A stretch of DNA of 64,000 nucleotides from Amphiplicatus metriothermophilus (lineage in GTDB: Bacteria; Pseudomonadota; Alphaproteobacteria; Caulobacterales; Parvularculaceae), in the NCBI RefSeq assembly GCF_900199215.1, contig NZ_FZQA01000002.1, positions 137,501-201,500 on the forward strand. The letters run 5' to 3'. The position numbers were made by a program, and so were the translations under genes. Positions 8,475 to 39,260 of this stretch are shown here, piece after piece (position 1 is the stretch's first letter; every line of letters starts with the position of its first letter). The notes below the pieces were generated by a model that ran no database searches, was not told where the DNA came from, and worked only from the letters and a program-made list of their open reading frames with translations.

Positions 8475-8484
8475 GTCGGGCCGA

Positions 8485-9141: not shown

Positions 9142-9221
9142 CCATTCCTCTCAGTATCGCTCTTGGCGTAATTGGATTGAAACAACGCTTCGTCTCTATG
9201 CTTCAAGACGGTTTAAAAGAC

Positions 9222-9752: not shown

Positions 9753-9798
9753 TTTTGCGGCGCAGCAGTTGTCTTTCGGCGCGCGCAGGATTATGTCA

Positions 9799-9813
9799 GC
9801 GGGCTCAGCCCGC
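9799..9813 (+). terminator. Short GC hairpin between folK and rpoZ
   Basis: A perfect GCGGGC / GCCCGC stem with a 3-nt loop lies 47 nt after folK and 24 nt before the rpoZ start. It has no T-run. It may weaken readthrough from folK into rpoZ. Confidence 0.3.
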
Positions 9814-9836
9814 ACCACCCGCATCAGGAGAACCGG

Positions 9837-10199
9837 ATGGCTCGCGTCACCGTTGAAGATTGCGTCGAGAAGGTTTCGAACCGCTTCGATCTCGTATTGC
9901 TGGCCGCCCACCGGGCGCGCGTGCTTTCCTCAGGCGCGCCCTTGCTGGTCGATCGCGACAACGACAAGAACCCGGTCGTGGCGCTGCGCGAGATCGCCGA
10001 CGGCGCGCTCGAACCCGACGCCGTCGCGGAGGATCTCGTCGCCTCGCTGCAGAAGCATATCGACACCGAAGAACCTGAAGAGGGCGCTCCGGTGGAGAAG
10101 GCGGACCAGCCTGAATTCGACAGGATCACCGAGGAAGAATATATTCGCGCCCTGAAGGCGTCGGGGATGACGACGCCGCAGTCCCTGCCCAAGGGTTAA
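9837..10199 (+). CDS. rpoZ: DNA-directed RNA polymerase omega subunit
   Basis: This 120-residue protein has the omega signature at its N terminus ([13 protein letters not shown], then [14 protein letters not shown]) and [12 protein letters not shown]. The C-terminal acidic extension ending in a conserved EEEYIRAL segment is typical of alphaproteobacterial omega. It chaperones the beta' subunit and in many bacteria is linked to ppGpp binding, which fits the rsh gene 20 bp downstream. The ribosome-binding site AGGAG lies about 7 nt before the ATG. Confidence 0.95.
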
Positions 10200-10219
10200 G
10201 GGAGGCGCCGTCGGGCGAC

Positions 10220-20996: not shown

Positions 20997-21779
20997 TCAT
21001 CCCGCCGCCGATCCCAGAAAGGCCGCTGCGCCGCCAAGGCAAAGGCCGGGACCAAAGGCGATCGGCGCGGCGGCGTCTACGCGTTTTCCCATAACGGCGC
21101 GCACGCCGACGACCGCCAGGGTCGCGAGCGCGCCGACGAACACCGCCGGCGCCAGCGCCGGCCAGCCGCCCCAAGCGCCGATGGCCGCCAGCAGCTTGGC
21201 GTCGCCCGCGCCGAGGCCTTCGCGCCCGCGCAACGCGGCATAGGCGAGAGCGATGAGGCCGAAAGCGGCGTAGCCCGCCGCCGCGCCGACGGCCGCGGCT
21301 TCGAGCGGAACGAATCGGTCCCCGACATTGGCGAGAAGTCCGAAAAGCAGAAGCGGCAGGGTGAGCGCGTCAGGCAGAAAACCCGTCTCGAAGTCGATCG
21401 CCGCGAGGGCGATCAGGCTCCACAGAAAGATCGCGGCGAGCAGCGCCTCCGGCGAAGCGCCGAACAGGGCGAGCGCGCCGAGGGCCGCGAGCGCGCCGGC
21501 GAGCTCGACGAGCGGATAGCGCGGCGGGATCGCCGCCCCGCAAGCCGCGCAGCGCCCGCGCAGCGCGAGGTAGCTCGCAAGCGGAATGAGATGGAGCGGC
21601 GACAGCCGCGTGCGGCATTGCGGACAATAAGAACGCGGCGCGAGCAGCGTTCCCCTGTCGGCGCCGTCCGATTCCTCGATCAGCCCCCACATGGACGGGC
21701 CGCGATAAATGACGACGTTCAAAAACGACCCGGCAAGAAGGCCCGCCAGCGCGGCTGTGACGTAAAAGAACCACTCCAT
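20997..21779 (-). CDS. gspO: Prepilin peptidase of the type II secretion system
   Basis: This 260-residue polytopic membrane aspartyl protease cleaves and N-methylates type IV prepilins and pseudopilins. It has a cytoplasmic tetracysteine loop (CPQCRTRL ... CAACGAAI) and the two catalytic Asp residues in AIDFETGFLPD and GLGAGDAKLL. N-terminal GSFLNVVIYR also fits the PilD/GspO family. The start at 21779 gives MEWFFYVTAALAG; the in-frame upstream extension is charged and less likely. It is divergent from the surface lipoprotein and about 6 kb from gspC. Since gspG-K are in this window and no other prepilin peptidase is, it is the natural processing enzyme for them. Confidence 0.93.
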   Translation of the reverse strand: MEWFFYVTAALAGLLAGSFLNVVIYRGPSMWGLIEESDGADRGTLLAPRSYCPQCRTRLSPLHLIPLASYLALRGRCAACGAAIPPRYPLVELAGALAALGALALFGASPEALLAAIFLWSLIALAAIDFETGFLPDALTLPLLLFGLLANVGDRFVPLEAAAVGAAAGYAAFGLIALAYAALRGREGLGAGDAKLLAAIGAWGGWPALAPAVFVGALATLAVVGVRAVMGKRVDAAAPIAFGPGLCLGGAAAFLGSAAG

Positions 21780-21817
21780 GAAATTGCGCGGCTCCGATTT
21801 ATTTCTGCGCACATAGT

Positions 21818-21914: not shown

Positions 21915-21954
21915 TTGTCACAAAACTGAAAATCAACCGTCATGTCACTGTCGC
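21915..21954 (+). promoter_or_regulatory. Pho box array (four PhoB-type heptamers)
   Basis: Four heptamers lie exactly 11 bp apart: TTGTCAC, CTGAAAA, CCGTCAT, CTGTCGC, separated by 4-bp A/T-containing spacers. PhoB binds CTGTCAT-like 7-mers with 4-bp spacers in pairs, so this is two consecutive Pho boxes in the orientation that would activate the lipoprotein gene starting 94 bp downstream. Heptamers 1, 3 and 4 match at 5 or 6 of 7 positions; heptamer 2 is weaker. Phosphate-starvation control is an inference from this pattern. Confidence 0.72.
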
Positions 21955-22047
21955 GCCGCACGGCTAGCTCCCCGGCGTCGTGGGCGGCGCAAGGGCGACG
22001 CTCATCGGTTTTTTGCAAAGCGTCAACCACTCCGCGGGGGTCATGAC

Positions 22048-24837
22048 ATGAGGTTTCTTACGAACGTCCGTTCGATTCTGCTCGCCGGCGGCGCCGCGCT
22101 GGCGCTCGCCGCCTGCACCCAGGGCGAGGAAATCGCCTCGCCGGGGCCGAGCAATCCCGGCACGCCTCCGGGCGGCGGAGGCGGCGGCGGGGGCGGCGGG
22201 GGCGGCGGCGGGGCGCAGTGCCCAAGCGGCTTCACCGAAGGGACGGGCGTCGGCGGCTTCACCGTCTGCAATATTTCCGGCACGCTGCTCGGCGATCTCA
22301 CCCTGCCTTTCGTGCAGGGCGTCGCCTATCGCCTCGACGGGCGCGTGGATGTCGGCGAGGATGGCGGCCCGACCTGCTCCGGCGGGGCTGACGAAGCCAC
22401 CTTGACGATTGAACCCGGCGTCATTGTGTTCGGCGCTTCGGGCTCCGATTACCTGGTCGTCAATCGCTGCTCACGGATCATCGCCGACGGCGAGCAGAAT
22501 GCGCCGATCGTCTTCACCAGCGAGAACGACCTAGAGCGCCGGGCCGTCGATCCAAACGACACGGGCGGCTCTGCGATCTCCGAATGGGGCGGGGTGGTGG
22601 TTCTCGGCCGCGCGCCGATCAACCGCTGCATCGCCGGAACGCCGGGCACGGTCGACTGCGAGCAGACCATTGAAGGCGTCACGAATCCGGATGCGCTTTA
22701 CGGCGGCGCGACCGTCGACGACGACAGCGGCGTTCTGCGCTACGTGCAGATTCGCTTCGCCGGCTTCGCGATCAATCAGGACGGCGACGAGCTGAACGGC
22801 CTGACGCTCGGCGGCGTCGGTTCCGGCACGACCGTCGAATATGTCCAGGTGCATAACAATTCCGATGACGGGATCGAGGTCTTCGGCGGCGCGGTGAACC
22901 TCAAATATATCGTGCTCACCGGCAATGACGACGACTCCTTCGACCTCGACAACGGATGGAACGGCGCGACGCAGTTTCTGGTGATTAAGCAGCGCGACGA
23001 CGGCGGCGACAACGGAATGGAGCTGTCGAGCGCGACAGGCGTGACGCCGGCGACAAATCCGACGATCGCCAATTTTACGCTGGTCGGCGCGCGGTCCAAC
23101 GCCTTCCGCATCAATTCCGGCCATATCGGACGCTTCATCAACGGCGTGGTTTCCTATGGCGGGAACTGCTTCCGCTGGGAAAGCTCGGCGGGCGACGGGG
23201 ACCCGTCGTCCTATGGCGGCGTCGACGTCGATCCGACCTTCAACTCTGTGCTGTTCGACTGCGACGGCGAGCTGACCAACGATTCGCCGGACACGCCGGC
23301 GGCGGTTCAGTCGGTCAACGCCGATCCCAACAATGTTATCGGCGAAAGCTCGCTCGCCGCGACGTTCTTCCCCGGCCCGAACGAGCTTGCGGTCACGCCG
23401 TTCGATCTGACGACGCTTCCCGGAATGTTCTTCGAGGATGTCGACTATGTCGGCGCGTTCGGCCCGGATGAAACCGAGACAGATAATTGGGCGACCGGTT
23501 GGACCTTCGCCCTGTTCCCCGAACCGGGCTGCCCGGCTGGCACGACGGATACGGGTTCGACGATCGGCGGCGTAAAGGTTTGCAGCGTCAGCGGCGTTCA
23601 AACTACGGATCTTCGCCTTACGCGCGGCAATTATTACCGGCTCGACGGCAGGGTCGATATCGGCGTCGATGTCGGCGCCGACGGCGCCAAGGCCGGAGGC
23701 GTCGCGGCCGAACTGACGATCGAGTCAGGCGCCGTGATCTTCGGCGAAAGCGGCGACGACTACCTGGTCGTCAATCGCGGCTCCAAAATTTTCTCGAACG
23801 GCACGGCGCAGAATCCCGTCATTTTCACATCGCGGGCGGATCTGGAAGACAACCAGCCCGATCCGCTTAACGCCATCGGCGAATGGGGCGGGGTGGTGGT
23901 TCTCGGCCGCGCGCCGATCAACCGCTGCATCGCCGGGACGCCGGGCACGGTCGACTGCGAGCAGACCATCGAAGGCGTCACGAATCCGGATGCGCTTTAC
24001 GGCGGCGCGATCGCCGATGACGACAGCGGCGCGATCAGGTTTACGCAGATCAAATACGCCGGCTTCGCGATCAATCAGGACGGCGACGAGCTGAACGGCC
24101 TGACGCTCGGCGGCGTTGGTTCCGGCACGACCGTCGAATATGTCCAGGTGCATAACAATTCCGATGACGGGATCGAGGTCTTCGGCGGCGCGGTGAACCT
24201 CAAATATATCGTGCTCACCGGCAATGACGACGACTCCTTCGACCTCGACAACGGATGGAGCGGGTTCACGCAATATCTCATCATCGTTCAGCGCGAGCTT
24301 GGCGGCGACAACGGGATGGAACTGTCGAGCGCGACAGGCGTGACGCCGGCGACAAATCAGACGATCGCCAATTTCACGCTGGTCGGCGGGCGCTCCAACG
24401 CCTTCCGCATCAATTCCGGCCATATCGGACGCTTCATCAATGGCGTCGTGGCTTATGACGGCGCGCCGTGTTTCCGCTGGGAAAGCTCGGCGGGCGACGG
24501 GGACCCGTCGTCCTATGGCGGCGTCGACGTCGATCCGACCTTCAACTCTGTGCTGTTCGACTGCGCTGGTCTGACCAACGATTCGCCGGACACGCCCGCC
24601 GCCGTCCAGTCGGTGAACGCCGATCCCAACAACACGACGACGACGCCGGACTCGCTGATCAACACCTTCGTCAACGGGCCGAACGAATCCTCCGTGACGG
24701 CGTTCGACCTCTCGACGCTGGGCGGCGCAGCGGCGGCATTCTTCGATGACGTCGATTACATCGGCGCGGTTCGGGATGCGAACGACCGCTGGTGGGCGGG
24801 CTGGACCTGCGGTCTTGAGCCTGGCTCGGATTGCTGA
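22048..24837 (+). CDS. Large surface lipoprotein, two near-duplicate beta-helix-like domains (ElpS-like)
   Basis: This 929-residue lipoprotein has its lipobox at LAAC (Cys23), a Pro/Gly linker with 14 consecutive glycines (residues 42-55) and two copies of a domain of about 430 residues (about 58-485 and 495-925). Each copy starts with a CPxG..GT segment and contains EWGGVVVLGRAPINRC, a TLGGVGSGTTVEYVQVHNNSDDGIEVFGG block and FRWESSAGDGDPSSYGG. Repeating short beta-strand turns suggest a right-handed beta-helix, and the domain resembles uncharacterised surface proteins of Bacteroidetes and Proteobacteria. Paired Cys residues fit an extracytoplasmic site. Its position between Pho boxes and TonB receptor plus T2SS genes suggests a T2SS-exported, phosphate-starvation surface protein. 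I recall ElpS of Caulobacter as a functional parallel; orthology is not proven. The enzymatic activity is unknown. Confidence 0.85.
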   Translation: MRFLTNVRSILLAGGAALALAACTQGEEIASPGPSNPGTPPGGGGGGGGGGGGGGAQCPSGFTEGTGVGGFTVCNISGTLLGDLTLPFVQGVAYRLDGRVDVGEDGGPTCSGGADEATLTIEPGVIVFGASGSDYLVVNRCSRIIADGEQNAPIVFTSENDLERRAVDPNDTGGSAISEWGGVVVLGRAPINRCIAGTPGTVDCEQTIEGVTNPDALYGGATVDDDSGVLRYVQIRFAGFAINQDGDELNGLTLGGVGSGTTVEYVQVHNNSDDGIEVFGGAVNLKYIVLTGNDDDSFDLDNGWNGATQFLVIKQRDDGGDNGMELSSATGVTPATNPTIANFTLVGARSNAFRINSGHIGRFINGVVSYGGNCFRWESSAGDGDPSSYGGVDVDPTFNSVLFDCDGELTNDSPDTPAAVQSVNADPNNVIGESSLAATFFPGPNELAVTPFDLTTLPGMFFEDVDYVGAFGPDETETDNWATGWTFALFPEPGCPAGTTDTGSTIGGVKVCSVSGVQTTDLRLTRGNYYRLDGRVDIGVDVGADGAKAGGVAAELTIESGAVIFGESGDDYLVVNRGSKIFSNGTAQNPVIFTSRADLEDNQPDPLNAIGEWGGVVVLGRAPINRCIAGTPGTVDCEQTIEGVTNPDALYGGAIADDDSGAIRFTQIKYAGFAINQDGDELNGLTLGGVGSGTTVEYVQVHNNSDDGIEVFGGAVNLKYIVLTGNDDDSFDLDNGWSGFTQYLIIVQRELGGDNGMELSSATGVTPATNQTIANFTLVGGRSNAFRINSGHIGRFINGVVAYDGAPCFRWESSAGDGDPSSYGGVDVDPTFNSVLFDCAGLTNDSPDTPAAVQSVNADPNNTTTTPDSLINTFVNGPNESSVTAFDLSTLGGAAAAFFDDVDYIGAVRDANDRWWAGWTCGLEPGSDC
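22582..24590 (+). repeat. Intragenic tandem repeat, offset 1299 bp, with near-identical cores
   Basis: DNA from about 22582-23300 recurs at about 23881-24590. Large parts are identical or differ only at silent sites; for example, a stretch of roughly 160 bp from the start of the ctgacgctcggcggcgt segment differs at a single base. The flanking first part of each domain (22219-22560 versus 23527-23860) is far more diverged. This mosaic suggests a duplication kept uniform by recombination. Confidence 0.88.
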
Positions 24838-24848
24838 CGCCGGGGGGC

Positions 24849-24874
24849 GGGCGGCGCAACCATTTGCGCCGCCC
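24849..24874 (+). terminator. Strong intercistronic hairpin between lipoprotein and TonB receptor
   Basis: A perfect 11-bp stem (GGGCGGCGCAA / TTGCGCCGCCC) with a 4-nt loop starts 11 nt after the lipoprotein stop. There is no T-run after it. It could partly terminate transcription or protect the 3' end of the lipoprotein message, giving more lipoprotein than receptor. Confidence 0.6.
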
Positions 24875-24911
24875 CAATCATTCGTCCGCAGAATTTTGGG
24901 GTTGAAAAATC

Positions 24912-27530: not shown

Positions 27531-27577
27531 GCATAGTAGGCAGAGGCGGGCCGGGGTAAAGGGCCCGAATCTTGCTA

Positions 27578-27607
27578 AGCAGCCGTCCGCGAAGGTGGGC
27601 GGCTGCT
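27578..27607 (+). terminator. Hairpin between TonB receptor and gspC
   Basis: An 8-bp perfect stem (AGCAGCCG / CGGCTGCT), extendable by three more pairs including one G-T, lies 48 nt after the receptor stop. It lacks a T-tract. It may be an attenuator separating receptor expression from the secretion genes. Confidence 0.5.
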
Positions 27608-27666
27608 GCGCATTCTGGTAAAGCTTCAGGGCGACGAGCCTTGGGGCGCGCGTAAGGTGAGCACTG

Positions 27667-28533
27667 TTGGCGGTGATCGGGCAGGACCAGTTTGAACGCT
27701 CGGCGGCTTTGGCGATGCGGGCGCGGTCATGGCTGCGCCGTCTGACCGGCTCCGCCGGCTCTTTCGGCGGGCTTAAGGCGATCGATGCGCCGCGCTTGGC
27801 GGAATTCGGGCTGGCCGCGCTGATCGCCCTTCTCTGCGCCGGGATCGCCCTCGACATGGTCGCGCCGCTCCCGGTTTCGCGCAAGCCCGCTGTTCCATCC
27901 GCGGCGCGCGCGGATCGGGGAATCGAAGCCCGCAATCCTTTCTTTTCCCCCGCGCGCGAGACGGCGCAGACGGCCGCCGCGCCGGCGGCGGAGACTACGC
28001 TCGATCTCAAGCTGCACGGCACATGGATCGACGATGCGGGCGGCACGGCGATCATTCGCACGCCTGACGGCAAGCAGAAGACCTACGCCGTCGGAGATGC
28101 GGTCTGCTGCGGGGCGCGGCTCGACGGCGTGTTCGCCGACCGCGTGGTCATTCTGCGCGACGGCGTGCGGGAATCGCTCCGCCTGCCGCGCGACATGGAC
28201 GCATCCGCGCGCGCCGCCGCCCCGACGACGGCACCGCCCCCGGCCAAACGGAATGCGGAGGATTTGCGCCGGATCATCCGCGTGCAACCTGTTTCCTCGG
28301 TCGGCGGCGCGCGTTTCGCTCTCTTCCCGGCCGGCGACGTCGCTGCGTTCGAAGCCCTTGGGCTTCGCGAAGGGGACATATTGCTTCGGATCAACGGCGC
28401 GCCTGCGCCGCAGGACGCAGAAGGTTTCGCACGTCTCGTCAACACGCTCGCCGACGCCGGCGAGGCGACGCTGACGGTCGAGCGCGATGGCGCGACCGCG
28501 ACAGTTCGCATTGCGCCCGCCGCCGGAGGCTGA
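27667..28533 (+). CDS. gspC: Type II secretion inner-membrane protein GspC
   Basis: This 288-residue protein has one membrane helix (LAEFGLAALIALLCAGIAL), a periplasmic homology region (LKLHGTWIDDAGGTAIIRTPDGKQKTYAVGDAVCCGARLDGVFADRVVILRDG) that docks on the secretin, and a C-terminal PDZ domain (EALGLREGDILLRINGAPAPQDAEGFARLV). The likely start is the TTG at 27667, preceded by AAGGTGAG at good spacing; a GTG lies two codons later. It opens the collinear gspC-N run and links the inner-membrane platform to the outer-membrane channel and substrates. Confidence 0.92.
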   Translation: MAVIGQDQFERSAALAMRARSWLRRLTGSAGSFGGLKAIDAPRLAEFGLAALIALLCAGIALDMVAPLPVSRKPAVPSAARADRGIEARNPFFSPARETAQTAAAPAAETTLDLKLHGTWIDDAGGTAIIRTPDGKQKTYAVGDAVCCGARLDGVFADRVVILRDGVRESLRLPRDMDASARAAAPTTAPPPAKRNAEDLRRIIRVQPVSSVGGARFALFPAGDVAAFEALGLREGDILLRINGAPAPQDAEGFARLVNTLADAGEATLTVERDGATATVRIAPAAGG

Positions 28534-28543
28534 TGCGCAGGAG

Positions 28544-30544
28544 ATGGCTCATCGCATGAAAATGACTGTTGCGTTCCTTGTCTGCCTGGCTGCTATCGCA
28601 AGCGCAGCCGACGCGCAGGACTCTGCGCGACAAACCTGCGGGGCGGCGATCAATTACGACGACGCAGACATCAGGGCCGTGGTCGACGAGATCGCCCTGC
28701 GCACCGGTCGGACGTTTCTGCTCGATCCCCGCGTGCAGGGCCGCGTAACGGTGAAATCCCCCCCCAATGGCGGTTTGTGCGCTGACGAAGCCTGGGAGCT
28801 GTTCCAGGCGATGCTGCGGGTGAACGGCTTCACGGCGACCCCGATCGGCTCCGGCAAGTACAAGATCGTGCCGGCGCAGGAGGGGCCGCGCGCAGCCGGC
28901 CCGGTCGGCGAGGCGGAAGGCGGCGATATCGTCACGCAGATCGTCCGCTTGCAGCATGTCGATGCGCGCGAGGCGGCGGCGAACCTTTCCCAGATCATCA
29001 ACGAGCGCGGAGTCGCGGCGCCGGTGCGCAGCGGCAACGCGCTGATCCTTGTCGACACAGCCGACAACATGGCGCGTTTGCGCGAAGTGCTCGCCCAGCT
29101 CGACCGCGACACGACCATCTATCGCACCATCCCGCTCAACTACGCCTCGGCCGGCGAAGTCGCGCGCGTCGTAGGCGGCCTGGCTCAGGAGATCACCGAA
29201 GAAGGCGGGCAGCGCGCGAAGATCAGCGTCGTGCCGGTCGAGGCGAGCAACAGCGTGCTCATTCGCGCCGAACCGGCGATCATCAACCGCCTTTCCAGAA
29301 TCATCGCCGAGCTTGATCAGATCGGTCAAGCGAAATCGGATTTGTCGGTGATATACCTCGACCATGCGGATGCGGAGGAGATGGCGTCGCTGCTCCGTGA
29401 GATTGCGGACGCGCAGACGACAGCCGGCGAAGACGGCGCGTCAGGCCGGCCGCGCGCGACCATATCGTATCACAAGCCGACCAACGCGGTGATCATCAAC
29501 GGCGATGCGGACATGCAGCGCACGCTGAAGAACGTCATAGCTCAACTCGACGTGCGCCGCGCGCAGGTTCTTATAGAAGCGATCATCGTCGAGGTTTCTG
29601 ACAGAACCGCCCGCGAGCTCGGTCTGCAATATTTCCTGACGGGGACAAAGGGAAGCTCGATTCCATTCATGACGACGAATTTTCGCTCGACGCAGCCGAA
29701 TATCCTGGCGCTGGCGGGGCCCACGTTGATCGAAACGGGCGTGCTGCCTGATACGTTCGAAGACTTTCGCGAGGATCTCGCGGAAGCCGCGCTCAATTCG
29801 CTCCTGGGCCTCAACGGGCTCGGTCTGGGCGGAGCGGGACGCATCGGCGACGACGGCGTGTTCAGCGCGATCCTGACCGCCATCAAACAGGACGACACTT
29901 CGAATGTGCTGTCGACTCCCTCGGTCGTCACTTTGGACAATCAAACGGCGCGGCTTTCGGTCGGGCAGGAGATACCGATCACCACCGGCGAGGCGATCGG
30001 CGACGATTTCACGAACGCCTTTCGTACGATCTCGCGCGAAGAAGTGGGCGTCATTCTGGAAGTGACGCCGCAGATCAACGAAGGCGGCACGATCACGATG
30101 GAGATTTCGCAGGAGACCTCCAGCGTCGCCGGGCAGATCATTGAGGAGTCGACCGATCTCATCACCAACAAGCGCGAGCTGACAACCATGGCTTTGGTTG
30201 ACGACGGCGATATTCTGGTGATCGGCGGCCTGATCGACGATCAGTCATCTACGCGACAGGACAAGGTGCCGCTGCTCGGCGATATTCCGGTCGCGGGCAA
30301 TCTGTTCCGGTCGTCCGGCAGAACCCGCGAGCGGCGCAATCTCATGGTCTTCATCAAACCCACGATCTTGCGGGATCGCGAGACGGCGCGCGCGGCGACG
30401 ACGAAGAAGCTGAACTATCTCAAAGCGCGGGATTCGCTTTACCGGGGCGAGCCGACATCGGATCTCGAGCGGCTTATCGAGCAGGCGACGGGCCTCGACC
30501 GGCCGGCCGACGCCGGCGACGCCAACGCCAACGACAGACCATGA
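28544..30544 (+). CDS. gspD: Type II secretion secretin GspD
   Basis: This outer-membrane channel subunit of about 666 residues has a signal peptide (MTVAFLVCLAAIASAADAQ), an N0 domain (INYDDADIRAVVDEIALRTGRTFLLDP) and three N1-N3 repeats (VRLQHVDAREAAANLSQII, IPLNYASAGEVARVVGGL, IYLDHADAEEMASLLREI). The secretin domain has VLIEAIIVEVSD, SNVLSTPSVVTLDNQTARLSVGQEIPI and VPLLGDIPVAGNLFRS. The start is at 28544 or the ATG at 28556, both behind AGGAG. The C-terminal residues after FIKPTILRD resemble an S-domain position. The stop overlaps the gspE start (ATGA). Confidence 0.96.
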   Translation: MAHRMKMTVAFLVCLAAIASAADAQDSARQTCGAAINYDDADIRAVVDEIALRTGRTFLLDPRVQGRVTVKSPPNGGLCADEAWELFQAMLRVNGFTATPIGSGKYKIVPAQEGPRAAGPVGEAEGGDIVTQIVRLQHVDAREAAANLSQIINERGVAAPVRSGNALILVDTADNMARLREVLAQLDRDTTIYRTIPLNYASAGEVARVVGGLAQEITEEGGQRAKISVVPVEASNSVLIRAEPAIINRLSRIIAELDQIGQAKSDLSVIYLDHADAEEMASLLREIADAQTTAGEDGASGRPRATISYHKPTNAVIINGDADMQRTLKNVIAQLDVRRAQVLIEAIIVEVSDRTARELGLQYFLTGTKGSSIPFMTTNFRSTQPNILALAGPTLIETGVLPDTFEDFREDLAEAALNSLLGLNGLGLGGAGRIGDDGVFSAILTAIKQDDTSNVLSTPSVVTLDNQTARLSVGQEIPITTGEAIGDDFTNAFRTISREEVGVILEVTPQINEGGTITMEISQETSSVAGQIIEESTDLITNKRELTTMALVDDGDILVIGGLIDDQSSTRQDKVPLLGDIPVAGNLFRSSGRTRERRNLMVFIKPTILRDRETARAATTKKLNYLKARDSLYRGEPTSDLERLIEQATGLDRPADAGDANANDRP

Positions 30545-32046
30545 GCGACGCCAGCACACAGTCGCCGGTGAGATTGACTTACGCGTTCGCCAAGGAGCGC
30601 GGACTCGTCGTGCTCGATGGCGCGTCGCGGCCGGTCGTCGTCGGGTCGCGCGGCAGCCCCGATCCATGGGCGCTGATCGAGGCGCGCCGGGTCGCCGACG
30701 CGCCGATCCTCATCGAGGAGATGCCGCCGGAGGCCTTTGAGCGCCGCCTGTCGGAGATTTACTCCGTAAACGCCATTCACGCCGACGATTTCGCGATGGA
30801 GGGAGACGAAGGCGATCTCATGTCGCTGGCCGAGGGGCTGCCCCAGACCGCGGATCTGCTGGAAGCTGAGGACGACGCGCCCGTCATCCGGCTTATCAAC
30901 GCGCTCATCGCTGAAGCGGTGAAGACGCGCGCCTCTGACATTCATATAGAACCCTACGAGAAAAGCCTGTCGGTGCGCCTGCGCATCGACGGCGTTTTGC
31001 GGGAAGTTTTGTCTCTGCCGGCGCGCATGACGGCGGCGCTGGTCTCGCGGGTGAAGGTCATGGCGCGCCTCGACATCGCGGAAAAGCGGGTGCCGCAGGA
31101 TGGGCGCATCTCCATTGCGCTCGGCGGCAAGGCGGTCGACGTGCGCGTTTCGACCCTGCCGGCCCGTTACGGCGAGCGGGTCGTCATGCGAATTCTCGAC
31201 AAGGAGGCCGCGCGACTCGACCTCGAGACGCTGGGCATGCCGGAAGACGTGAAGAGCCGTTTCAAGCAGGCGCTGCGCCGGCCGAACGGGATCATCCTCG
31301 TCACCGGCCCCACGGGTTCGGGCAAGACGACCACGCTTTACGCCGCGCTGACGCTGCTCAACGATCCGAGCCGAAACATCCTCACCGTCGAAGATCCCGT
31401 GGAATACGCCATCGACGGAATCGGTCAGACGCAGATCAACCCGCGCGTCGGCATGACTTTCGCGACCGGCCTGCGCGCGATTCTTCGTCAGGATCCGGAT
31501 ATCGTCATGGTCGGCGAGATCCGCGACGTGGAGACCGCCGAAATCGCCATTCAGGCCGCGCTCACCGGCCATCTTGTCCTGTCGACGGTGCACACCAATT
31601 CGGCGGTCGGCGCGGTCACGCGCCTGCGCGACATGGGCGCGGAGCCGTTTCTTCTGTCCTCCACCATCGCTGCGGTGATGGCGCAGCGTCTGGTGCGCCG
31701 GCTGTGCCCGTCCTGCAAGGAGCCGCACGCGCCGGACGAGGCGGAGCGGAGCGTCCTCGGCCTGGCGGCCGATGCGGCGGTCGAGATTTATCGCGCCGCG
31801 GGATGCGGACGCTGCGGACATACGGGTTACGAAGGCCGGATAGGGGTGTACGAACTGATCGTCGCCGACGAGACCTTGCGCAAGCTCATTCATGACGACG
31901 CCAGCGAACAGACGCTCGCCGCCCACGCCTTCCGCCATGCCGACACGCTCGCGCAATGCGGCTTCCGTCATGTGCTCGCCGGCGTCACGTCGCTTGAAGA
32001 AGTCCTCAGGGTCGTGCGCCAGGAGGAAGACGATGCCGGCCTATGA
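30541..32046 (+). CDS. gspE: Type II secretion assembly ATPase GspE
   Basis: This 501-residue cytoplasmic hexameric ATPase has Walker A GPTGSGKTT (Lys262), an Asp box (RASDIHIEPYE, LRIDGVL), Walker B-region RQDPDIVMVGEIRDVETAEIA and a His box (GHLVLSTVHTN). The zinc-binding tetracysteine CPSC ... CGRC identifies it as a GspE rather than a PilT. It powers pseudopilus assembly. It overlaps gspD by 4 bp and gspF by 14 bp. Confidence 0.97.
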   Translation: MSDASTQSPVRLTYAFAKERGLVVLDGASRPVVVGSRGSPDPWALIEARRVADAPILIEEMPPEAFERRLSEIYSVNAIHADDFAMEGDEGDLMSLAEGLPQTADLLEAEDDAPVIRLINALIAEAVKTRASDIHIEPYEKSLSVRLRIDGVLREVLSLPARMTAALVSRVKVMARLDIAEKRVPQDGRISIALGGKAVDVRVSTLPARYGERVVMRILDKEAARLDLETLGMPEDVKSRFKQALRRPNGIILVTGPTGSGKTTTLYAALTLLNDPSRNILTVEDPVEYAIDGIGQTQINPRVGMTFATGLRAILRQDPDIVMVGEIRDVETAEIAIQAALTGHLVLSTVHTNSAVGAVTRLRDMGAEPFLLSSTIAAVMAQRLVRRLCPSCKEPHAPDEAERSVLGLAADAAVEIYRAAGCGRCGHTGYEGRIGVYELIVADETLRKLIHDDASEQTLAAHAFRHADTLAQCGFRHVLAGVTSLEEVLRVVRQEEDDAGL

Positions 32047-33247
32047 GTACGAGGCGCTCGACCCTTCGGGGCGCGCGCGCCGCGGGATCGTCAGCGCCGA
32101 CAGCCCGCACCAGGCGCGCCGCGAGTTGCGCCGGCTGCGGCTCACGCCGCTGCGCCTGTCCGCTCCCCGGGCCGAGCGCGCCGGCCGGCTGGGCGGGCGT
32201 CGGCCGCCGCGGCTCGGGCATGGCGCGATCGTGCTCGTCACGCGCCAGCTCGCCGCGCTCGTGGCCGCCGCGACGCCGCTCGAGGAGGCGCTCAACGCCG
32301 TCGCTCTGCAGACGGAGAAACCGGCCGCGCGCGCGCGCCTTCTTGCAGTGCGCGAACGGGTGATGGAAGGCTGGCGCTTCGCCGACGCCCTGGCCGAAGA
32401 TCCGCGCTCCTTCTCCGATCTTTATCGCGCCGTCGTCGCGGCGGGAGAGACCTCCGGCGATCTCGCTGGGGCGCTCGATCGGCTTGCGACCATGCTGGAG
32501 AAGAATCGCGCCATGCGCAACAAGGCGCTCGCCGCGCTGGTCTATCCGGCCGTGCTGGCGCTCGTGGCCGGCGGCGTGCTGACCTTGCTGATGACGACGG
32601 TCGTGCCCAAGATCGTCGAGCAGTTCAACGCTTTCGGCGGCGAGCTGCCTGCGATCACCCGCGTCGTGATGGGGCTGTCGCATTTCATCGGCGCTTACGG
32701 GCTGTACCTGCTCGTCGGCGTGATCCTCCTCCTCGCCGCCTTCTGGAGAGGCATGAAGACGCCGGCCTTCAAGCTCGCCGTCGACCGGGCGCTATTGCGC
32801 CTGCCGGTCATCGGCCGGCTGTTGCGCGGGCTAGACGGAGCGCGCTTCGCCCGCACGCTCTCGACGCTGGTCGCGGGCGGGGCGCCGCTGCTCGACAGTC
32901 TCGCCGGCGCGCAGCGCACCTGCGCCAACGATTACATCCGCGCCCGGCTCGACGGCGCCATCGCGATGGTGCGCGAAGGCGCCTCGCTCGCGAACGCGCT
33001 GCGCCGGGCGGGCGCGCTGCCGCCGATGATGACGCATATGGCCGCCGCCGGCGAGCGATCGGGCGCGCTCCCGGATCTGCTTGACCGCGCCGCCGCGCAG
33101 CTTGAAGACGAATTTGATGCCGCTTCCACCGTCGCGCTAAGATTGCTCGAGCCGGCGATTATTTTCGCGATGGGCGGCGCGATCATGGTGATCGTGATTT
33201 CGATCCTGTTGCCGATCCTGCGGCTCAACGCCCTGGCGGCCGGGTGA
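32033..33247 (+). CDS. gspF: Type II secretion inner-membrane platform protein GspF
   Basis: This 404-residue protein starts MPAYEYEALDPSGRARRGIV, the GspF/PilC N terminus. Two homologous cytoplasmic helical domains follow (LVTRQLAALVAAATPLEEAL and FARTLSTLVAGGAPLLDSLAGA), each before membrane helices (LAALVYPAVLALVAGGVLTLLM, LYLLVGVILLLAAFW, IIFAMGGAIMVIVISILLPI). AGGAGGAAG lies just before the ATG at 32033; the open frame upstream is inside gspE. It is the rotating adaptor that GspE acts on. Confidence 0.95.
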   Translation: MPAYEYEALDPSGRARRGIVSADSPHQARRELRRLRLTPLRLSAPRAERAGRLGGRRPPRLGHGAIVLVTRQLAALVAAATPLEEALNAVALQTEKPAARARLLAVRERVMEGWRFADALAEDPRSFSDLYRAVVAAGETSGDLAGALDRLATMLEKNRAMRNKALAALVYPAVLALVAGGVLTLLMTTVVPKIVEQFNAFGGELPAITRVVMGLSHFIGAYGLYLLVGVILLLAAFWRGMKTPAFKLAVDRALLRLPVIGRLLRGLDGARFARTLSTLVAGGAPLLDSLAGAQRTCANDYIRARLDGAIAMVREGASLANALRRAGALPPMMTHMAAAGERSGALPDLLDRAAAQLEDEFDAASTVALRLLEPAIIFAMGGAIMVIVISILLPILRLNALAAG

Positions 33248-33271
33248 GTTCAACCGAACGCCGGAGAGAAT

Positions 33272-33739
33272 ATGAAAGAACGCATCGAACTACGGATCAA
33301 GGATCGCAGCCGCGCGCAGCGCGGCGTGACCCTCATCGAGCTTCTCGTGGTGCTCGCCATTCTGACCTTCATTTCGGCGATCGTCGTGGTCAACGTCCTG
33401 CCCGAGCGCGACCGCGCCGCGGCGCGCAAGGCCAGAATCGACATCGGCGTAATCGAAAGCGCGCTCGAGCAGTACCGCCTCGACATGATGACCTATCCGA
33501 GCACGGAGGAGGGTCTGGACGCGCTGGTCGAGCCTCCGCCGAACGCGCCGCGCGCCGATCAATACCGGCCCGGCGGCTATATCAAGCGCGGCGCGGCGGT
33601 CGACCCCTGGGGCAACCCTTATCAGTACCGCTATCCTGGCGAGTACGGCGTGTACGATCTTTTCTCCTACGGCGCGGACGGCGAACCGGGCGGGGAGGGG
33701 ATCAACGCGGATATCGGCAACTGGACGCCCGAACGCTGA
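33272..33739 (+). CDS. gspG: Major pseudopilin GspG
   Basis: This 155-residue prepilin has a 17-residue basic leader ending in G18, with cleavage before V19, and the conserved Glu at mature position +5 (VTLIELLVVLAIL). The first mature residue is Val rather than the usual Phe. C-terminal GspG features are present: YRLDMMTYPSTEEGLDALVEPP, DPWGNPYQYRYPGEYGVYDLFSYGADG and the Ca-binding-type end GGEGINADIGNW. It forms the pseudopilus shaft after processing by GspO. The stop overlaps gspH by one base (TGATG). Confidence 0.96.
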   Translation: MKERIELRIKDRSRAQRGVTLIELLVVLAILTFISAIVVVNVLPERDRAAARKARIDIGVIESALEQYRLDMMTYPSTEEGLDALVEPPPNAPRADQYRPGGYIKRGAAVDPWGNPYQYRYPGEYGVYDLFSYGADGEPGGEGINADIGNWTPER

Positions 33740-34248
33740 TGAGACGGAACGTTCAAAGCGGCCTGACGCTCATCGAGCTGCTGGTCGTGCTGGCGATTCT
33801 CGCGCTTACGGCGTCAGTCGTCGTTCTCAATGCGCCGCCGTCGCGTCAGACCGCGCGGGTCGAAGCCGAACGCTTCGCTGCGCGGCTCGATGCGGCGATG
33901 GCCTCGTCGCTTACGACAGGCGCGCCTTTGCGCCTTGCGACGACGCCGGCGGGCTATCGCTTTGAGCGCTATGCGGATGGGGGCTGGAACGCGCAGGAGG
34001 GCGAGGGTCCCATGGCGCCGCGCGCGCTGCCTCGCGAGGTCGCGCTGGCGTTCGAAACGCAGGACGCGGCGTTCGCCAACGCCGCGCCCGACGAAGCCGG
34101 AAAAGCGGAAGCGCCGCGCCGCCTGACGATCGACCCGGTCGGCGTCGGCGACGCTTTCGCCGCGGTATTCTCCGATGGCGAACAGATCTGGCGGGTCGAA
34201 ATCGATCATGCCGGAACGATTACGGTGACGCGCGATGACCGTTCGTGA
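33739..34248 (+). CDS. gspH: Minor pseudopilin GspH
   Basis: This 169-residue prepilin has cleavage site SG|LTLIELLVVLAIL (G8, Glu at +5) followed by about 130 residues of globular domain. The GspH identity rests on position after gspG, length and the N terminus; the globular part is poorly conserved. Its start is the ATG at 33739, in the last bases of gspG, and it overlaps gspI by 14 bp. It should join the pseudopilus tip complex or the junction between tip and shaft. Confidence 0.88.
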   Translation: MRRNVQSGLTLIELLVVLAILALTASVVVLNAPPSRQTARVEAERFAARLDAAMASSLTTGAPLRLATTPAGYRFERYADGGWNAQEGEGPMAPRALPREVALAFETQDAAFANAAPDEAGKAEAPRRLTIDPVGVGDAFAAVFSDGEQIWRVEIDHAGTITVTRDDRS

Positions 34249-34615
34249 CGCTGACAGCCAAAAAGGCTTCACCCTCATCGAAGCGCTCGTCGCGCTGGTC
34301 GCGCTCGGTCTCGTCGTCGGGGGCGCCCTGGCGTTGATTGCGCAGAACGCCCGTTTCATCGCCGCTGCGGAGGACCGGCTCGTCGCGCAGGCGCTTGCGG
34401 ATAATCTGATGGTCGAGGCGCTCGCCGCCTCGGCGCCGCTGGAACGCGAGGTGACAAGCGGCGAGACCAGTTTCGCCGGCCGCGACCTGCGCTGGCGGCG
34501 CGTCGTGGTAGAGACCGGCGTCGACGACGTCGTGCGCATCGATATCGACGTGCGTCGCCGCAAAGTCGGACAGACGCTCGCCGCGGCGACATCGCTCAAA
34601 CGGGAGCGATCCTGA
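34235..34615 (+). CDS. gspI: Minor pseudopilin GspI
   Basis: This 126-residue prepilin has cleavage site KG|FTLIEALVALVALG (G11, Glu at +5). The following NLMVEALAAS and the basic beta-strand-rich C-terminal half (LRWRRVVVETGVDDVVRIDIDVRRR) are typical of GspI. It nucleates the tip complex with GspJ and GspK. It overlaps gspH by 14 bp and gspJ by one base. Confidence 0.92.
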   Translation: MTVRDADSQKGFTLIEALVALVALGLVVGGALALIAQNARFIAAAEDRLVAQALADNLMVEALAASAPLEREVTSGETSFAGRDLRWRRVVVETGVDDVVRIDIDVRRRKVGQTLAAATSLKRERS

Positions 34616-35274
34616 TGCGGCGCGCGCAAGGCGGATTCACGCTGGTCGAACTTCTGGTCGCGCTATTCATCTTCGCGCTGATCGCCGGCGCGGGCGTCGT
34701 CGCCCTGCGCCTTGGGGTCGATGCGCGCGAGCAACTCGACGCGGCCGATCGTCGCCTGCGCGAGATGGAGATCGCGCGCCTCATCGTGAAGGAAGACCTC
34801 GCCCAGACGGTCGCTCGCCCCGTTCGCGACGCGTTCGGAGAACGGCTTGGCCCGCCTTTCCTCGGCGGCGTCGAGACCCGCGTCCGTCCGCCGATTGAAG
34901 GCGAAAGACTGCTTCTCGCCTTCGTGCGCGGAGGCTGGATCAATCCGGAAAGCGCAGCCCCGCGTTCAAGCCTTCAATATGTCGAGTATCTGGTCAAGGA
35001 CGACGCATTGATCCGCCGCGTGCGCCCTTATCTCGACGATGCGCGCGGCCAGCCGTCCTTCGAGCGCGTGCTGGTCTCCGGCGTATCGAATGTGGAGATC
35101 GCATTCCTCGCAGGGGAGGCCGGCGGCGCGCTCCAATGGGCGGAAGGATGGCCGGCGCCGGGCGGCGCCGGCGGCCTGCCGCGCGCGATGTCGCTTTCCT
35201 TCTCGACCGAACGGTTCACGGATTTTCGCCAGCTTTTCTGGGTCGGCGCAGTGGCGACGGGGGAGCGGTCATGA
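34615..35274 (+). CDS. gspJ: Minor pseudopilin GspJ
   Basis: This 219-residue prepilin has cleavage site GG|FTLVELLVALFIFALIAG (G7, Glu at +5). The family landmark VKEDLAQTVARPVRDAFG is followed by FLGG and the LLAFVRGGWINP segment. It forms the tip with GspI and GspK. It is coupled to gspI (TGATG) and gspK (ATGA). Length is within the usual GspJ range. Confidence 0.93.
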   Translation: MRRAQGGFTLVELLVALFIFALIAGAGVVALRLGVDAREQLDAADRRLREMEIARLIVKEDLAQTVARPVRDAFGERLGPPFLGGVETRVRPPIEGERLLLAFVRGGWINPESAAPRSSLQYVEYLVKDDALIRRVRPYLDDARGQPSFERVLVSGVSNVEIAFLAGEAGGALQWAEGWPAPGGAGGLPRAMSLSFSTERFTDFRQLFWVGAVATGERS

Positions 35275-36317
35275 GCCGGCCGATCGTTCCGCATGCGCCG
35301 GCGGATCGCGGAAGCGGGCGCCCCTCGAGTTCCGCATTCCGGTCCGGCCAAAAAGGCGCCGCACTGATCGTCGTCCTGCTGCTTGCCGCGACGCTCTCCT
35401 TCGTGGCGCTGGCGATCAGCGAACGGACGGTTCTCGCCGCCCAGCGCGCCGTTCACGCGCGCGCGCGCGCCGAGGCGCTCTGGCGCGCCTTCGGCGCCGA
35501 GGCGCTCGCGGCGGCGGCGCTGGCGGCTGCGGCGCGCGAGACGCCTGAGCGCATGACGCTCGACGAGCCCTGGATCGAACGCCCGATCGAAGTCCCGATG
35601 GAAGGCGGAAGGGCGGTCATCTGGTTCGCCGATGCGGGGCGCTGTTTCAATCTCAATGGGCTCGTGCGCGCTGACGGCGATCAGCTCTACGTCGCGCGCG
35701 AGGGCGCCGGCGAAGAACTCGCCGCGCTGCTCGATGCGGCGGGGGCGGGGGCCGGGGAGGCGGCGCGGCTCGCCGTCCTCGTCCAGGACTGGATCGACGC
35801 CGACAGCCTTTCCGCGCCGCAGGGGGCGGAAGACGGCTATTATCTCGGTTTGCCGGTCCCGTATCGCACGGGCGGAACGCTCCTTGCGGACGAGACGGAA
35901 ATGCGCGCTCTCGCCGACATGACGCCTGAGTTTTACGCGTTCGTCCGGCGTTATGCCTGCGCGCTGCCGACCCCCGAACCGTCGCCGCTTAACGTTAACA
36001 TGTTGCGCGCGGAGGACGCGCCTTTGCTGGTCGGGCTTCTTAAAGGCGCGATCAGTCTCGCCGCGGCGCAGGACGTCGTCGCCGACCGGCCGCCGGGCGG
36101 TTATGGCGCGGTTGACGAGTTCTGGAGTCACAGGGCGTTCGAGGACGTCGATGCGACGCAGGATGTCCGCAACCGGGTCGCGATCACGTCGCGTTACATC
36201 GCGGCGCGGGCGGAGATAGAGTATGAAGGCGTCGCCAGGGAGGCTCGAATGCTGTTCGAAATTGGCGAGGGCGGCCGCGTAAGGCTGCTGCGCCGCCGGC
36301 TGGGGCCCGACGCATGA
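35271..36317 (+). CDS. gspK: Minor pseudopilin GspK
   Basis: This 348-residue prepilin has an unusually long 29-residue leader ending KG|AALIVVLLLAATLS. Position +5 is Val rather than Glu, the known hallmark of GspK, which caps the tip. Later segments WFADAGRCFNLNGLV, VLVQDWIDAD, PLNVNMLRAEDAPLL and GYGAVDEFW fit the GspK alpha-domain insert. The start is the ATG at 35271 overlapping the gspJ stop. Overlaps gspL by 4 bp. Confidence 0.94.
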   Translation: MSRPIVPHAPADRGSGRPSSSAFRSGQKGAALIVVLLLAATLSFVALAISERTVLAAQRAVHARARAEALWRAFGAEALAAAALAAAARETPERMTLDEPWIERPIEVPMEGGRAVIWFADAGRCFNLNGLVRADGDQLYVAREGAGEELAALLDAAGAGAGEAARLAVLVQDWIDADSLSAPQGAEDGYYLGLPVPYRTGGTLLADETEMRALADMTPEFYAFVRRYACALPTPEPSPLNVNMLRAEDAPLLVGLLKGAISLAAAQDVVADRPPGGYGAVDEFWSHRAFEDVDATQDVRNRVAITSRYIAARAEIEYEGVAREARMLFEIGEGGRVRLLRRRLGPDA

Positions 36318-37507
36318 CCGACCTGCTGCTCATGCTTCTGGGCGAGTCTCCGGACGCGCCGCTGCGTTGGGGGCGCGTGCGCGACGGCCGGCTCATTGAG
36401 GGCGGCCGGCTTGATGACGCGCGTGGGCTGGCGGCGCTGCAGGATCATGCGGCCGAGGCCTCGCTCGTGGCTGCTCTCCTGCCGGGCGAACAGGTCGCGA
36501 CGCGCCGGCTCGCCGCGCCGCCGCGCGACGAGAGGAAGCTGCGCGCGGCCGCCGAATTTCTCATCGAGGACGAGCTTGGCGAGCCGATAGCGGATCTCCA
36601 CGTCGCCGTCGGCGCCGACGCGCGCGGCGCGCTCGCCGTCGCCGTGCGCAGGCGGATCGTCGAGAACTGGCTTGAAGCCTTCGCGGGCGCGGGCATCGGT
36701 TGCGCGCTTCTGAGCGCGGATTATCTCGCCCTGCCTCCAGCAGACAACGCAGCCGTCGTCATTTTCGACGGCGCGCGCGTCGTTGCGGCGATGCCGGATG
36801 GCGGGTTCGCCGTCGAGACGGCTTTGTTCGAGCGCATCGCTGCGGGCGTTTTTTCCGATGAGGTCGAGCGAATATCCGTGCTCGGAGACGCCGTTCATCG
36901 CCGGCTTCTGCCCAGAACTGTCGCGCTCGAATGGCTTGGAGCGAGCGGCGACGCAGCTCTGATTCTCGCTTATGCGCAGGCGATCGCCGAATCGTCGCCG
37001 GTCAATCTACGGCAGGGCGCCTATCGCCGCCGCAGGGACTGGCGCGCAGCCTTTGCGCCCTGGCGGCGGGCGGCGGCGCTCGCGGCGGCGTTGGCCGCGC
37101 TCCTACTCGTCGCCGGCGTCGCGGACGGACTGCGCGCGCATCGCATCGCCGATCGCTGGAGCGAGGCGGCGAGCGCTGTCCATGCAACGGCATTTCCCGA
37201 CGCCGTGGGCGAAAATCCGGCCGCCCATGCGCGGCGCGTGCTCGCCGCGGGGGGCGGGCCGTCTTTCCTCGCCCTGTCCGCCCGGTTCGCCGAAGCCGTC
37301 GAGGCGACAGGGACGGTTGAAATCGAACGCATAACCTTCGATGCGGCGCGGGGCGACTTCATCGTCAGCGTGCGGAGCCGCTCCGACGCGGACATCGAGG
37401 ATCTGAAACAGCGGCTGGCGGCGCTCGGAGTGGAGACCCGCGACAGCGGCGGCTACCGGCGGGCCGGCGCGGACTGGGTGGGCGAGTTGGCGGCGAGGAT
37501 GCGATGA
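36314..37507 (+). CDS. gspL: Type II secretion platform protein GspL
   Basis: This 397-residue protein has an N-terminal actin-like cytoplasmic domain (LLPGEQVATRRLAAPPRDERKLRAAAEFLIEDELGEPIADLHVAVG is the typical first part). One membrane helix follows (AAALAAALAALLLVAGVADGL), then a small ferredoxin-like periplasmic domain (IERITFDAARGDFIVSVRSRSDADIEDLKQRL). It anchors GspE to the membrane and binds GspM. It overlaps gspK and gspM by 4 bp each. Confidence 0.92.
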   Translation: MTDLLLMLLGESPDAPLRWGRVRDGRLIEGGRLDDARGLAALQDHAAEASLVAALLPGEQVATRRLAAPPRDERKLRAAAEFLIEDELGEPIADLHVAVGADARGALAVAVRRRIVENWLEAFAGAGIGCALLSADYLALPPADNAAVVIFDGARVVAAMPDGGFAVETALFERIAAGVFSDEVERISVLGDAVHRRLLPRTVALEWLGASGDAALILAYAQAIAESSPVNLRQGAYRRRRDWRAAFAPWRRAAALAAALAALLLVAGVADGLRAHRIADRWSEAASAVHATAFPDAVGENPAAHARRVLAAGGGPSFLALSARFAEAVEATGTVEIERITFDAARGDFIVSVRSRSDADIEDLKQRLAALGVETRDSGGYRRAGADWVGELAARMR

Positions 37508-37965
37508 CCGCATGGTGGAACGGCCTGACGGCGCGCGAGCGCCTCCTCGTCGCGATCGGCGGCGCCCTGGCGGCGCTTCTGTCGCTCGTCCAGTTCGTCA
37601 TCGTTCCGGTCGCAGGTTGGCGCGCGGCCGCCCATCGCGAGGCAGAGGCGGCGGAGACGGCTTACCGTCTCGTGGCGGAAGCCGCGGCGCTGGGCGGCGA
37701 GGCGCGCGCCGCGCCGGAGGAGGCCGTTCCCATCCGCAACGCCGTGGTTCAGGCCGCGCGGGACAACGGCGTGCCCCTGACCTTTCTCAATCCGCGGCCG
37801 GACGGCGATGTGGAGGCGCAGGCGAACGAGGCCGATCCGGAAAATCTTTATCGCATGCTCGCAACGCTCGAGGCCCGTTACGGGGTCGAGATCGTCCGCG
37901 CGGATATCGCACGCCTTTCGCCCGACTCTTCCATCGTGCGGGCGCGGATGACCTTTTCGCGATAG
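37504..37965 (+). CDS. gspM: Type II secretion platform protein GspM
   Basis: This 153-residue protein has the GspM start (WWNGLTARERLLVAIGGALAALLSLVQFVIVPV): a short cytoplasmic amphipathic segment, one membrane helix, then a coiled segment rich in Ala/Glu and a ferredoxin-like periplasmic domain. It partners GspL. It overlaps gspL by 4 bp, and gspN begins 9 bp later. Confidence 0.9.
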   Translation: MTAWWNGLTARERLLVAIGGALAALLSLVQFVIVPVAGWRAAAHREAEAAETAYRLVAEAAALGGEARAAPEEAVPIRNAVVQAARDNGVPLTFLNPRPDGDVEAQANEADPENLYRMLATLEARYGVEIVRADIARLSPDSSIVRARMTFSR

Positions 37966-37974
37966 GAGCGTCGA

Positions 37975-38772
37975 TTGGCCGTGCAGGATGGACAACGCAG
38001 CATGGACCGCGCGCCGCTGAAGCCGGCGCGCCCGCTTGTGTTTCTGGCCGCGGCGGCGTTCGCGATCAGCGTTCTTGCGAACCTGCCGGCCTCGCTCGTT
38101 CCGGTGCTGGCCGGATTCGACCGCTATGACGTCGCCTGGCGCAAGGCTGAAGGCTCGCTCTGGCGCGGCCGGATCGAGGGCGTCGTCTATCGCGGAGCGC
38201 CGCTGGGCGCGGTTTCGTTCCGCGTGCGACCATTATCGCTGTTGAGCGGCGGGCTCGCCGCCGAGCTTGATTTTCGCGGCGGCGCGCTCGAAGGCGCGAC
38301 TCGCGCGAGCGTCGGTCTCGGCGGCCGGATCGCGTTCGAGGGCGCCGATCTGGTTTTCGATCTCGGCGCGGCGCGGCGTTATCTGTTTCTCGGCGCGCCG
38401 CTCGAAGGTTCGGCGCGGATCGCGCTCGACAAGCTCGTGCTGACGCGCCGCGGCTGTCTCGCAGCCAGAGGCGATCTGTCGACCGACGTGCTGGCGCGCC
38501 GCGCGCGGCGGATGGGCGGAGAAGGATTCGTGCTCGCCGGAACGGCGGTCTGCGAGAATCATGAGCTTGTCCTCGATCTTTCGGGCCGCGGCGCGGAGGG
38601 CGCGGCGAGCCTCGTCATGCGCGTCCGGCCCGATTACACTTACGCGCTCGAAGCCGCCGTCGAGCCGGCGCGCGCAGATCTTGGGCTGGCGCTGGAGACC
38701 TTCGGCTTCGCCCGCGAGGACGGCGTGCTGACATACGGATCGACCGGCGCCATTCTCACGGCCGGCACATAG
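37975..38772 (+). CDS. gspN: Type II secretion protein GspN
   Basis: This 265-residue protein has one N-terminal membrane anchor (LVFLAAAAFAISVLANLPASLV), then GFDRYDVAWRKAEGSLWRGRIEGVVYRGAPLGAVSFRVRPLSLLSG, which is the recognisable GspN/AsmA-like region. A TTG at 37975 sits 6 nt after AGGAG; a GTG two codons later is an alternative. GspN is present in only part of T2SS clusters and its role is not settled. Confidence 0.87.
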   Translation: MAVQDGQRSMDRAPLKPARPLVFLAAAAFAISVLANLPASLVPVLAGFDRYDVAWRKAEGSLWRGRIEGVVYRGAPLGAVSFRVRPLSLLSGGLAAELDFRGGALEGATRASVGLGGRIAFEGADLVFDLGAARRYLFLGAPLEGSARIALDKLVLTRRGCLAARGDLSTDVLARRARRMGGEGFVLAGTAVCENHELVLDLSGRGAEGAASLVMRVRPDYTYALEAAVEPARADLGLALETFGFAREDGVLTYGSTGAILTAGT

Positions 38773-38783
38773 GGGAAACCGCA

Positions 38784-39260
38784 ATGCTGCGCCGTTATAT
38801 GATCGCCGCCATGCTCCTCGCCTCGGGCTGCGCCAGCGCGCCTCCCTCGGGGCCGGTCTCGACTGCAGCGCCGTCCGCGGGCGGCGAGGGGATCGCGCTC
38901 GGCGCGCTCGCGAACGCCGGCCTCAATCCGGGCGAGTGCGGCATGATTCTGTGGACGCTCGATGAAAACCGCCCGGCGCCGATATTCCGCTACGTCGTCG
39001 GCAAGGCCGCGGAGATTTCCGCGAACGGCGCGTTGATTCGCCTTGCGCCGGTCGGAGCCGAAGGCGCGGCTGCGTTCGGCGTGCACGAAAGCCAGACCTT
39101 TGAAGCGCCGGATGGGACGACTGCGCATGTCGAGGCGCGTTTCGGCCTTGGATTCGACAGAGGCGTATATCTCGAGCGCGGCCTCGTCCGGGTGGACGCG
39201 CCGGACGGCTGGCGCGCCGTCGCGCCGGCGGCGGGAATCGCCGGCTGCAGAGCAAAGTAG
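38784..39260 (+). CDS. Small lipoprotein at the end of the gsp cluster, function unknown
   Basis: This 158-residue lipoprotein has a lipobox (LLASGC, Cys16) and then a Ser/Ala/Gly linker. The compact domain contains GECGMILWTLDENRPAPIFRYVVGKAAEISANGALIRL and ends with a Cys pair-like AGCRAK. I do not recognise a named family. It starts 11 bp after gspN, so it is almost certainly co-transcribed with the secretion genes. No canonical GspS pilotin or GspAB is present here, so a role as secretin pilotin or assembly lipoprotein is a reasonable guess, without motif support. Confidence 0.75.
   Translation: MLRRYMIAAMLLASGCASAPPSGPVSTAAPSAGGEGIALGALANAGLNPGECGMILWTLDENRPAPIFRYVVGKAAEISANGALIRLAPVGAEGAAAFGVHESQTFEAPDGTTAHVEARFGLGFDRGVYLERGLVRVDAPDGWRAVAPAAGIAGCRAK

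Follow-up and report, generated by a model that had tools for sequence, protein, structure and literature searches.

The locus studied here lies in a 64-kb window (the whole stretch of DNA analysed, 64,000 nucleotides) from a 3.16-Mb genome of 98.4% completeness, and places a lipoprotein gene, a TonB-dependent receptor gene and a type II secretion system (T2SS) behind a PhoB-type promoter array. It raises the question of whether all of these parts form one nutrient-acquisition machine, with the T2SS working for the lipoprotein, or whether only some of them belong together. A locus of this type, elpS (cc0170)-cc0171-gspC-N of Caulobacter crescentus, was published in 2010 with its division of labour left open, and a similar layout was noted in Hyphomonas, Sphingomonas and Xanthomonas (PMC2996285). 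Our comparison singles out the box, the lipoprotein and the receptor. We read the locus as the Parvularculaceae version of an ElpS-type phosphate-starvation locus, in which a PhoB-driven lipoprotein and a TonB receptor would carry out the capture and the T2SS would be a general neighbour (probability roughly 0.8).

In the proposed mechanism, phosphorylated PhoB would bind the four-heptamer array when phosphate is scarce and induce the lipoprotein, as the conservation of the array suggests. Cys23 would anchor the protein in the outer membrane, where a flexible poly-Gly tether would present two predicted beta-helix modules. The likeliest role of these modules is to bind a polymer or glycan that carries phosphorus, or to trim it, and to hand it on to the TonB receptor encoded alongside. 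The hairpin between the two genes would probably result in more lipoprotein than receptor. The neighbouring T2SS would act as a general secretion machine that contributes at most indirectly to release or feeding of the lipoprotein, for example by exporting a tether-cutting protease as proposed for Caulobacter.

Organization of the locus

The gene order of the original prediction was found throughout, with the lipoprotein, the TonB receptor, gspC-N and a small lipoprotein on the plus strand and gspO divergent on the minus strand (Table 1). The T2SS set identified with Pfam and NCBIfam profiles is complete at the locus (C, D, E, F, G, H, I, J, K, L, M, N and O). The receptor scored under the cut-off of TIGR01782. 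The lipoprotein had been called duplicated, which is correct for the two halves of the protein but not for the gene, as there is a single gene with two homologous halves. The lipoprotein, TonB receptor and gspC-gspN follow the same order as in the Caulobacter elpS locus, whereas gspO is found at the lipoprotein end here and downstream of gspN in Caulobacter. Homologues from Caulobacteraceae with this layout are 40-51% identical to the lipoprotein, and the link to CC_0170 runs through these relatives and the published description.

Table 1. Annotated features of the locus, in window coordinates.
Feature	Position	Strand	Evidence
gspO prepilin peptidase, divergent	20997..21812	-	Pfam A24_N_bact + Peptidase_A24
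Four-heptamer PhoB-type array, 11-bp spacing	21915..21954	+	top site of window, 23.7 bits; kept in relatives
ElpS-like lipoprotein, 929 aa, two homologous halves	22048..24837	+	lipobox + linker; halves 72% identical in protein; predicted right-handed beta-helices
GC-rich mRNA hairpin, lipoprotein/receptor intergenic	24849..24874	+	-35.2 kcal/mol, z -2.7 (intergenic stretch folded)
TonB-dependent receptor, 872 aa	24912..27530	+	Pfam TonB_dep_Rec_b-barrel 1e-25 + Plug
Strong hairpin, TonB gene/gspC intergenic, no T-run	27578..27607	+	-70.9 kcal/mol, z -4.3, 0/200 shuffles (intergenic fold)
gspC	27667..28533	+	Pfam T2SSC
gspD secretin	28487..30544	+	TIGR02517 518 bits, above cut-off
gspE ATPase	30541..32046	+	TIGR02533 691 bits
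gspF, start inferred	32033..33247	+	TIGR02120 447 bits
gspG major pseudopilin	33272..33739	+	TIGR01710, T2SSG
gspH	33736..34248	+	Pfam GspH + N_methyl
gspI	34235..34615	+	Pfam T2SSI
gspJ	34615..35274	+	Pfam T2SSJ
gspK	35271..36317	+	Pfam T2SSK
gspL	36314..37507	+	Pfam T2SSL + GspL_C
gspM	37504..37965	+	Pfam T2SSM
gspN	37975..38772	+	Pfam T2SSN
Small lipoprotein	38784..39260	+	homologues near gspD in relatives; no Pfam/NCBIfam family

Structure of the lipoprotein

The lipoprotein carries a signal of the outer-membrane type (a LAAC-T lipobox with Cys23 and no Asp at +2) followed by the poly-Gly linker, and similar lipoboxes were found in nearly all relatives. In the AlphaFold model (pLDDT 86), a disordered tether (residues 1-54) is followed by two right-handed beta-helices, and the two homologous halves span residues of about 56-493 and 494-929. 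The Caulobacter ElpS differs in size, at about 50 kDa. Homologues with one, two or three modules exist. The literature searched held no report of two predicted beta-helices in such a lipoprotein.

Foldseek and VIA-align found tailspikes, NosD, alginate epimerases and lyases, and pectate lyases as the closest structural neighbours of both halves (Z about 18-22), and conserved Asp, His and Glu residues cluster densely in the centre of each half. Both observations would fit a lipoprotein with polysaccharide lyase or hydrolase activity of its own, for which phosphate would be no more than the regulatory signal. We regard this as possible but doubtful, as identity to the solved structures is only about 8-14%, a sequence search of the PDB gave no match and the fold is shared by non-enzymes such as NosD and the adenovirus protein LH3. 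The hydrolysis suggested by the original prediction finds no phosphatase fold in the model, which is predicted to be beta-helical. Membership of the PhoA, PhoX or PhoD phosphatases was rejected on the same model together with the lack of any Pfam or NCBIfam match, and membership of SusD was rejected in the same way, no SusD family being matched at E 0.1. The capture reading instead likens the pair to SusCD and PusCD, as a surface lipoprotein would be paired with a TonB-dependent outer-membrane channel, although the lipoprotein in this case is predicted to be beta-helical. Another likeness is found in Flavobacterium johnsoniae, where the related lipoproteins FI, FII and FIII are likewise encoded beside TonB-dependent transporters and are strongly induced on phosphate depletion (PMC8115612). 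Their context is that of Bacteroidetes and they have no adjacent T2SS. No CTGTCAT-type array was found at the Bacteroidetes loci of our wider set.

Concerted evolution of the two halves

The centres of the two halves (window positions 22581-23333 and 23880-24632) are 91% identical in DNA over 758 bp. When the edges of the halves were compared in 32 two-domain homologues, a clean N clade and C clade were observed, and the N and C halves of the same genome were sisters in no genome. The central 212 columns placed a genome's own halves as sisters in 19 of the 32 genomes, with support above 0.9 in 17 of them. Addition of more distant genomes gave own-sister halves in 27/56 genomes for the centre versus 1/56 for the edges. 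The pattern of the edges is the one that an old duplication should leave, and the simplest cause for the pattern at the centre would be repeated intragenic gene conversion, since purifying selection alone would not cluster paralogous halves by genome. Intragenic homogenisation of the lipoprotein centre was not found described in the literature searched, which also gave nothing specific on gene conversion inside outer-membrane proteins built in tandem.

The concerted evolution of the centre marks a likely functional surface. We tentatively suggest that the halves share the same surface ligand site, which selection would keep identical by recurrent conversion of the centre only, and that the protein might act as a bivalent (in some lineages trivalent) scavenger of phosphorus polymers feeding the TonB receptor.

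The promoter array and its regulator

The array consists of the heptamers TTGTCAC, CTGAAAA (a weak one), CCGTCAT and CTGTCGC separated by aaaa, tcaa and gtca. A weight matrix fixed beforehand from the CTGTCAT-type consensus was used to score 127,922 positions on the two strands of the window. The predicted array of four heptamers at exact 11-bp spacing before the poly-Gly-linked lipoprotein was the best array of the 64 kb, the next independent site reaching 12.1 bits, and none of 150 promoters resampled by a first-order Markov model matched its score. A second PhoB-type array ahead of the TonB gene or gspC, or one directed towards gspO, was looked for and not found.

Conservation of the array in relatives was among the checks proposed for this locus, and the array was found to be kept. 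Within the order, 23 of 39 promoters of homologous lipoproteins scored at least 14 bits at 11-bp spacing, and control spacings of 7-10 and 12-16 gave none or one above 14 bits. The other controls gave two on the minus strand and 0.8% for random 220-mers. A self-similarity analysis that uses no matrix showed peaks at 11 and 22 bp in the same promoters. In a wider set of named genomes, including Colwellia, Catenovulum, Pseudoalteromonas and Arsukibacterium among the array bearers, 29 of 77 lipoprotein promoters have the array at 11 bp, with none or one at neighbouring spacings. The array upstream of homologous lipoproteins is shared by Alpha- and Gammaproteobacteria, at 11 bp only among the spacings tested.

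The same type of array precedes pstS in four relatives (G039, G040, G047 and G055) and a weaker one is found in G050; many other pstS genes of the relatives have no array. PhoB is encoded in the genome, above the family cut-off. Taken together, the conserved spacing, the arrays before pstS in relatives and the presence of PhoB make control of the lipoprotein by PhoB the best reading of the promoter sequences, as had been predicted. It is also in line with Caulobacter, where phosphate regulation of elpS was shown experimentally and the PhoB regulon takes in the T2SS and TonB receptors.

It is improbable that the array serves another OmpR-family regulator and that the locus answers a different stress. 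Two observations speak for such a reading and against ours. One is that no Pst system, the usual signal input to PhoR, was recognised in the 98.4% complete genome, unlike in Caulobacter. PstS and a PstB orthologue were not found, nor were the PHO4/Pit and Na/Pi cotransporter families, although a PstS-like protein is present in some congeners. The other is a scan of 65% of the genome (2.06 Mb), in which only three strong PhoB-type arrays were found, two of them not before obvious phosphate genes. On the other hand, the half-sites TGTCA(T/C) at 11 bp are PhoB-type, and both the pstS arrays of the relatives and the phosphate response of elpS point to PhoB. ChvI was rejected as the regulator because its motif reported in Caulobacter, TTGC-N3-GCAA, differs from the array.

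A phoR-phoU-phoB cluster without pstCAB was found elsewhere in the genome (G000:C4:384500-402000, about positions 7988-11159 of that stretch, minus strand), and no PhoB-type array was found at the cluster, which also counts against our reading. Retention of these genes without a recognised Pst, Pit or Na/Pi importer was not found described in the literature searched. The strongest array found (G000:C4:197293-197332) reaches 33.3 bits, and the genes behind it encode a MotA/ExbB-like protein and an OmpA-type peptidoglycan-binding protein (NF006543). The third (G000:C6:100600-100639, 24.9 bits) is upstream of a chorismate mutase gene. A genome-wide phosphate regulon read from the arrays was rejected, as two of the three in the 2.06 Mb scanned precede genes with no clear phosphate role. 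Rfam gave no RNA gene that accounts for the arrays.

Association of the lipoprotein with the receptor and the T2SS

A TonB receptor adjoins the lipoprotein in every readable homologue of the order and, with few exceptions, in the wider set as well, where it is upstream in a few cases, and the proposed lipoprotein-receptor unit is thereby supported. The T2SS was observed to be less constant. In a set of 61 genomes, the lipoprotein is missing from nine with a full gspD (G006, G012, G013, G020, G026, G027, G036, G040 and G048), and a full-length gspD is missing from four with the lipoprotein (G039, G047, G054 and G055); the two genes are on separate contigs in G010 and G017. In the wider set, no T2SS gene was found within 10 kb of 17 of the 29 arrays. 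A deletion in G030 (C25, 11433-12615 of the locus) joins the 5' part of the lipoprotein gene to the 3' part of the receptor gene. Beside this relic, gspO, an intact T2SS and the promoter array, which scores 21.3 bits, are all retained.

The phosphatases secreted by Pseudomonas Hxc/Xcp connect a T2SS with phosphate starvation, and Klebsiella pullulanase is a lipoprotein that a T2SS serves as its client. The original prediction had regarded the T2SS here as serving mainly a single client encoded at the locus. A dedicated exporter that places the lipoprotein on the surface in the manner of pullulanase would account for the adjacency of lipoprotein and T2SS in many Alphaproteobacteria and Xanthomonas, and ElpS is missing from the medium of Caulobacter T2SS mutants (PMC2996285). 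However, ElpS stays on the surface of these mutants, the T2SS being needed only for proteolytic release (PMC2996285), which is attributed to a T2SS-secreted protease and is known from Caulobacter only. The prediction had named secretion of ElpS through the T2SS under phosphate starvation; phosphate control and a link to the T2SS stand, whereas surface display does not depend on it and the T2SS acts in release. The surface exposure of the Caulobacter homologue thus differs from that of pullulanase, and the Hxc/Xcp phosphatases differ in that no phosphatase fold is predicted here. With dissociation in both directions, the G030 relic and the exposure of ElpS without a T2SS, the dedicated client is unsupported and we judge a dedicated exporter to be unlikely.

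Comparison of the genomes says that the evolutionary unit would be the PhoB-type box, the lipoprotein and the TonB receptor, common to Alpha- and Gammaproteobacteria, with the T2SS as an optional neighbour that looks like a general-purpose system gained and lost independently. A unit without the T2SS shifts attention to ligand capture by the lipoprotein and receptor rather than to secretion.

The small lipoprotein downstream of gspN is unrelated to the ElpS-like lipoprotein. Homologues were found in 43 of the 61 genomes, and a hand comparison placed about 35 of them on the contig of gspD at a distance of 8-11 kb from it, also in genomes without an ElpS-like gene. By this distribution the small lipoprotein appears to belong with the T2SS, possibly as an accessory such as a pilotin. 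Prediction from the single sequence gave no usable model (pLDDT 40), and the literature on the Parvularculaceae T2SS held nothing specific.

Intergenic hairpins

Of 38 homologues, 37 have a strong hairpin (-18 kcal/mol or lower) directly 3' of the lipoprotein stop codon, compared with rates of 36% behind other long open frames and 20% at sites chosen at random. These hairpins vary in sequence and mostly have no T-run. A terminator after the lipoprotein or the TonB gene was rejected, as scan matches did not exceed those of shuffles and the intergenic hairpins have no T-runs. A recurrent hairpin between the lipoprotein and receptor genes was not found described in the literature searched. The lipoprotein/receptor hairpin may act in partial attenuation or 3'-end protection, which agrees with the report that elpS and cc0171 of Caulobacter are regulated separately.
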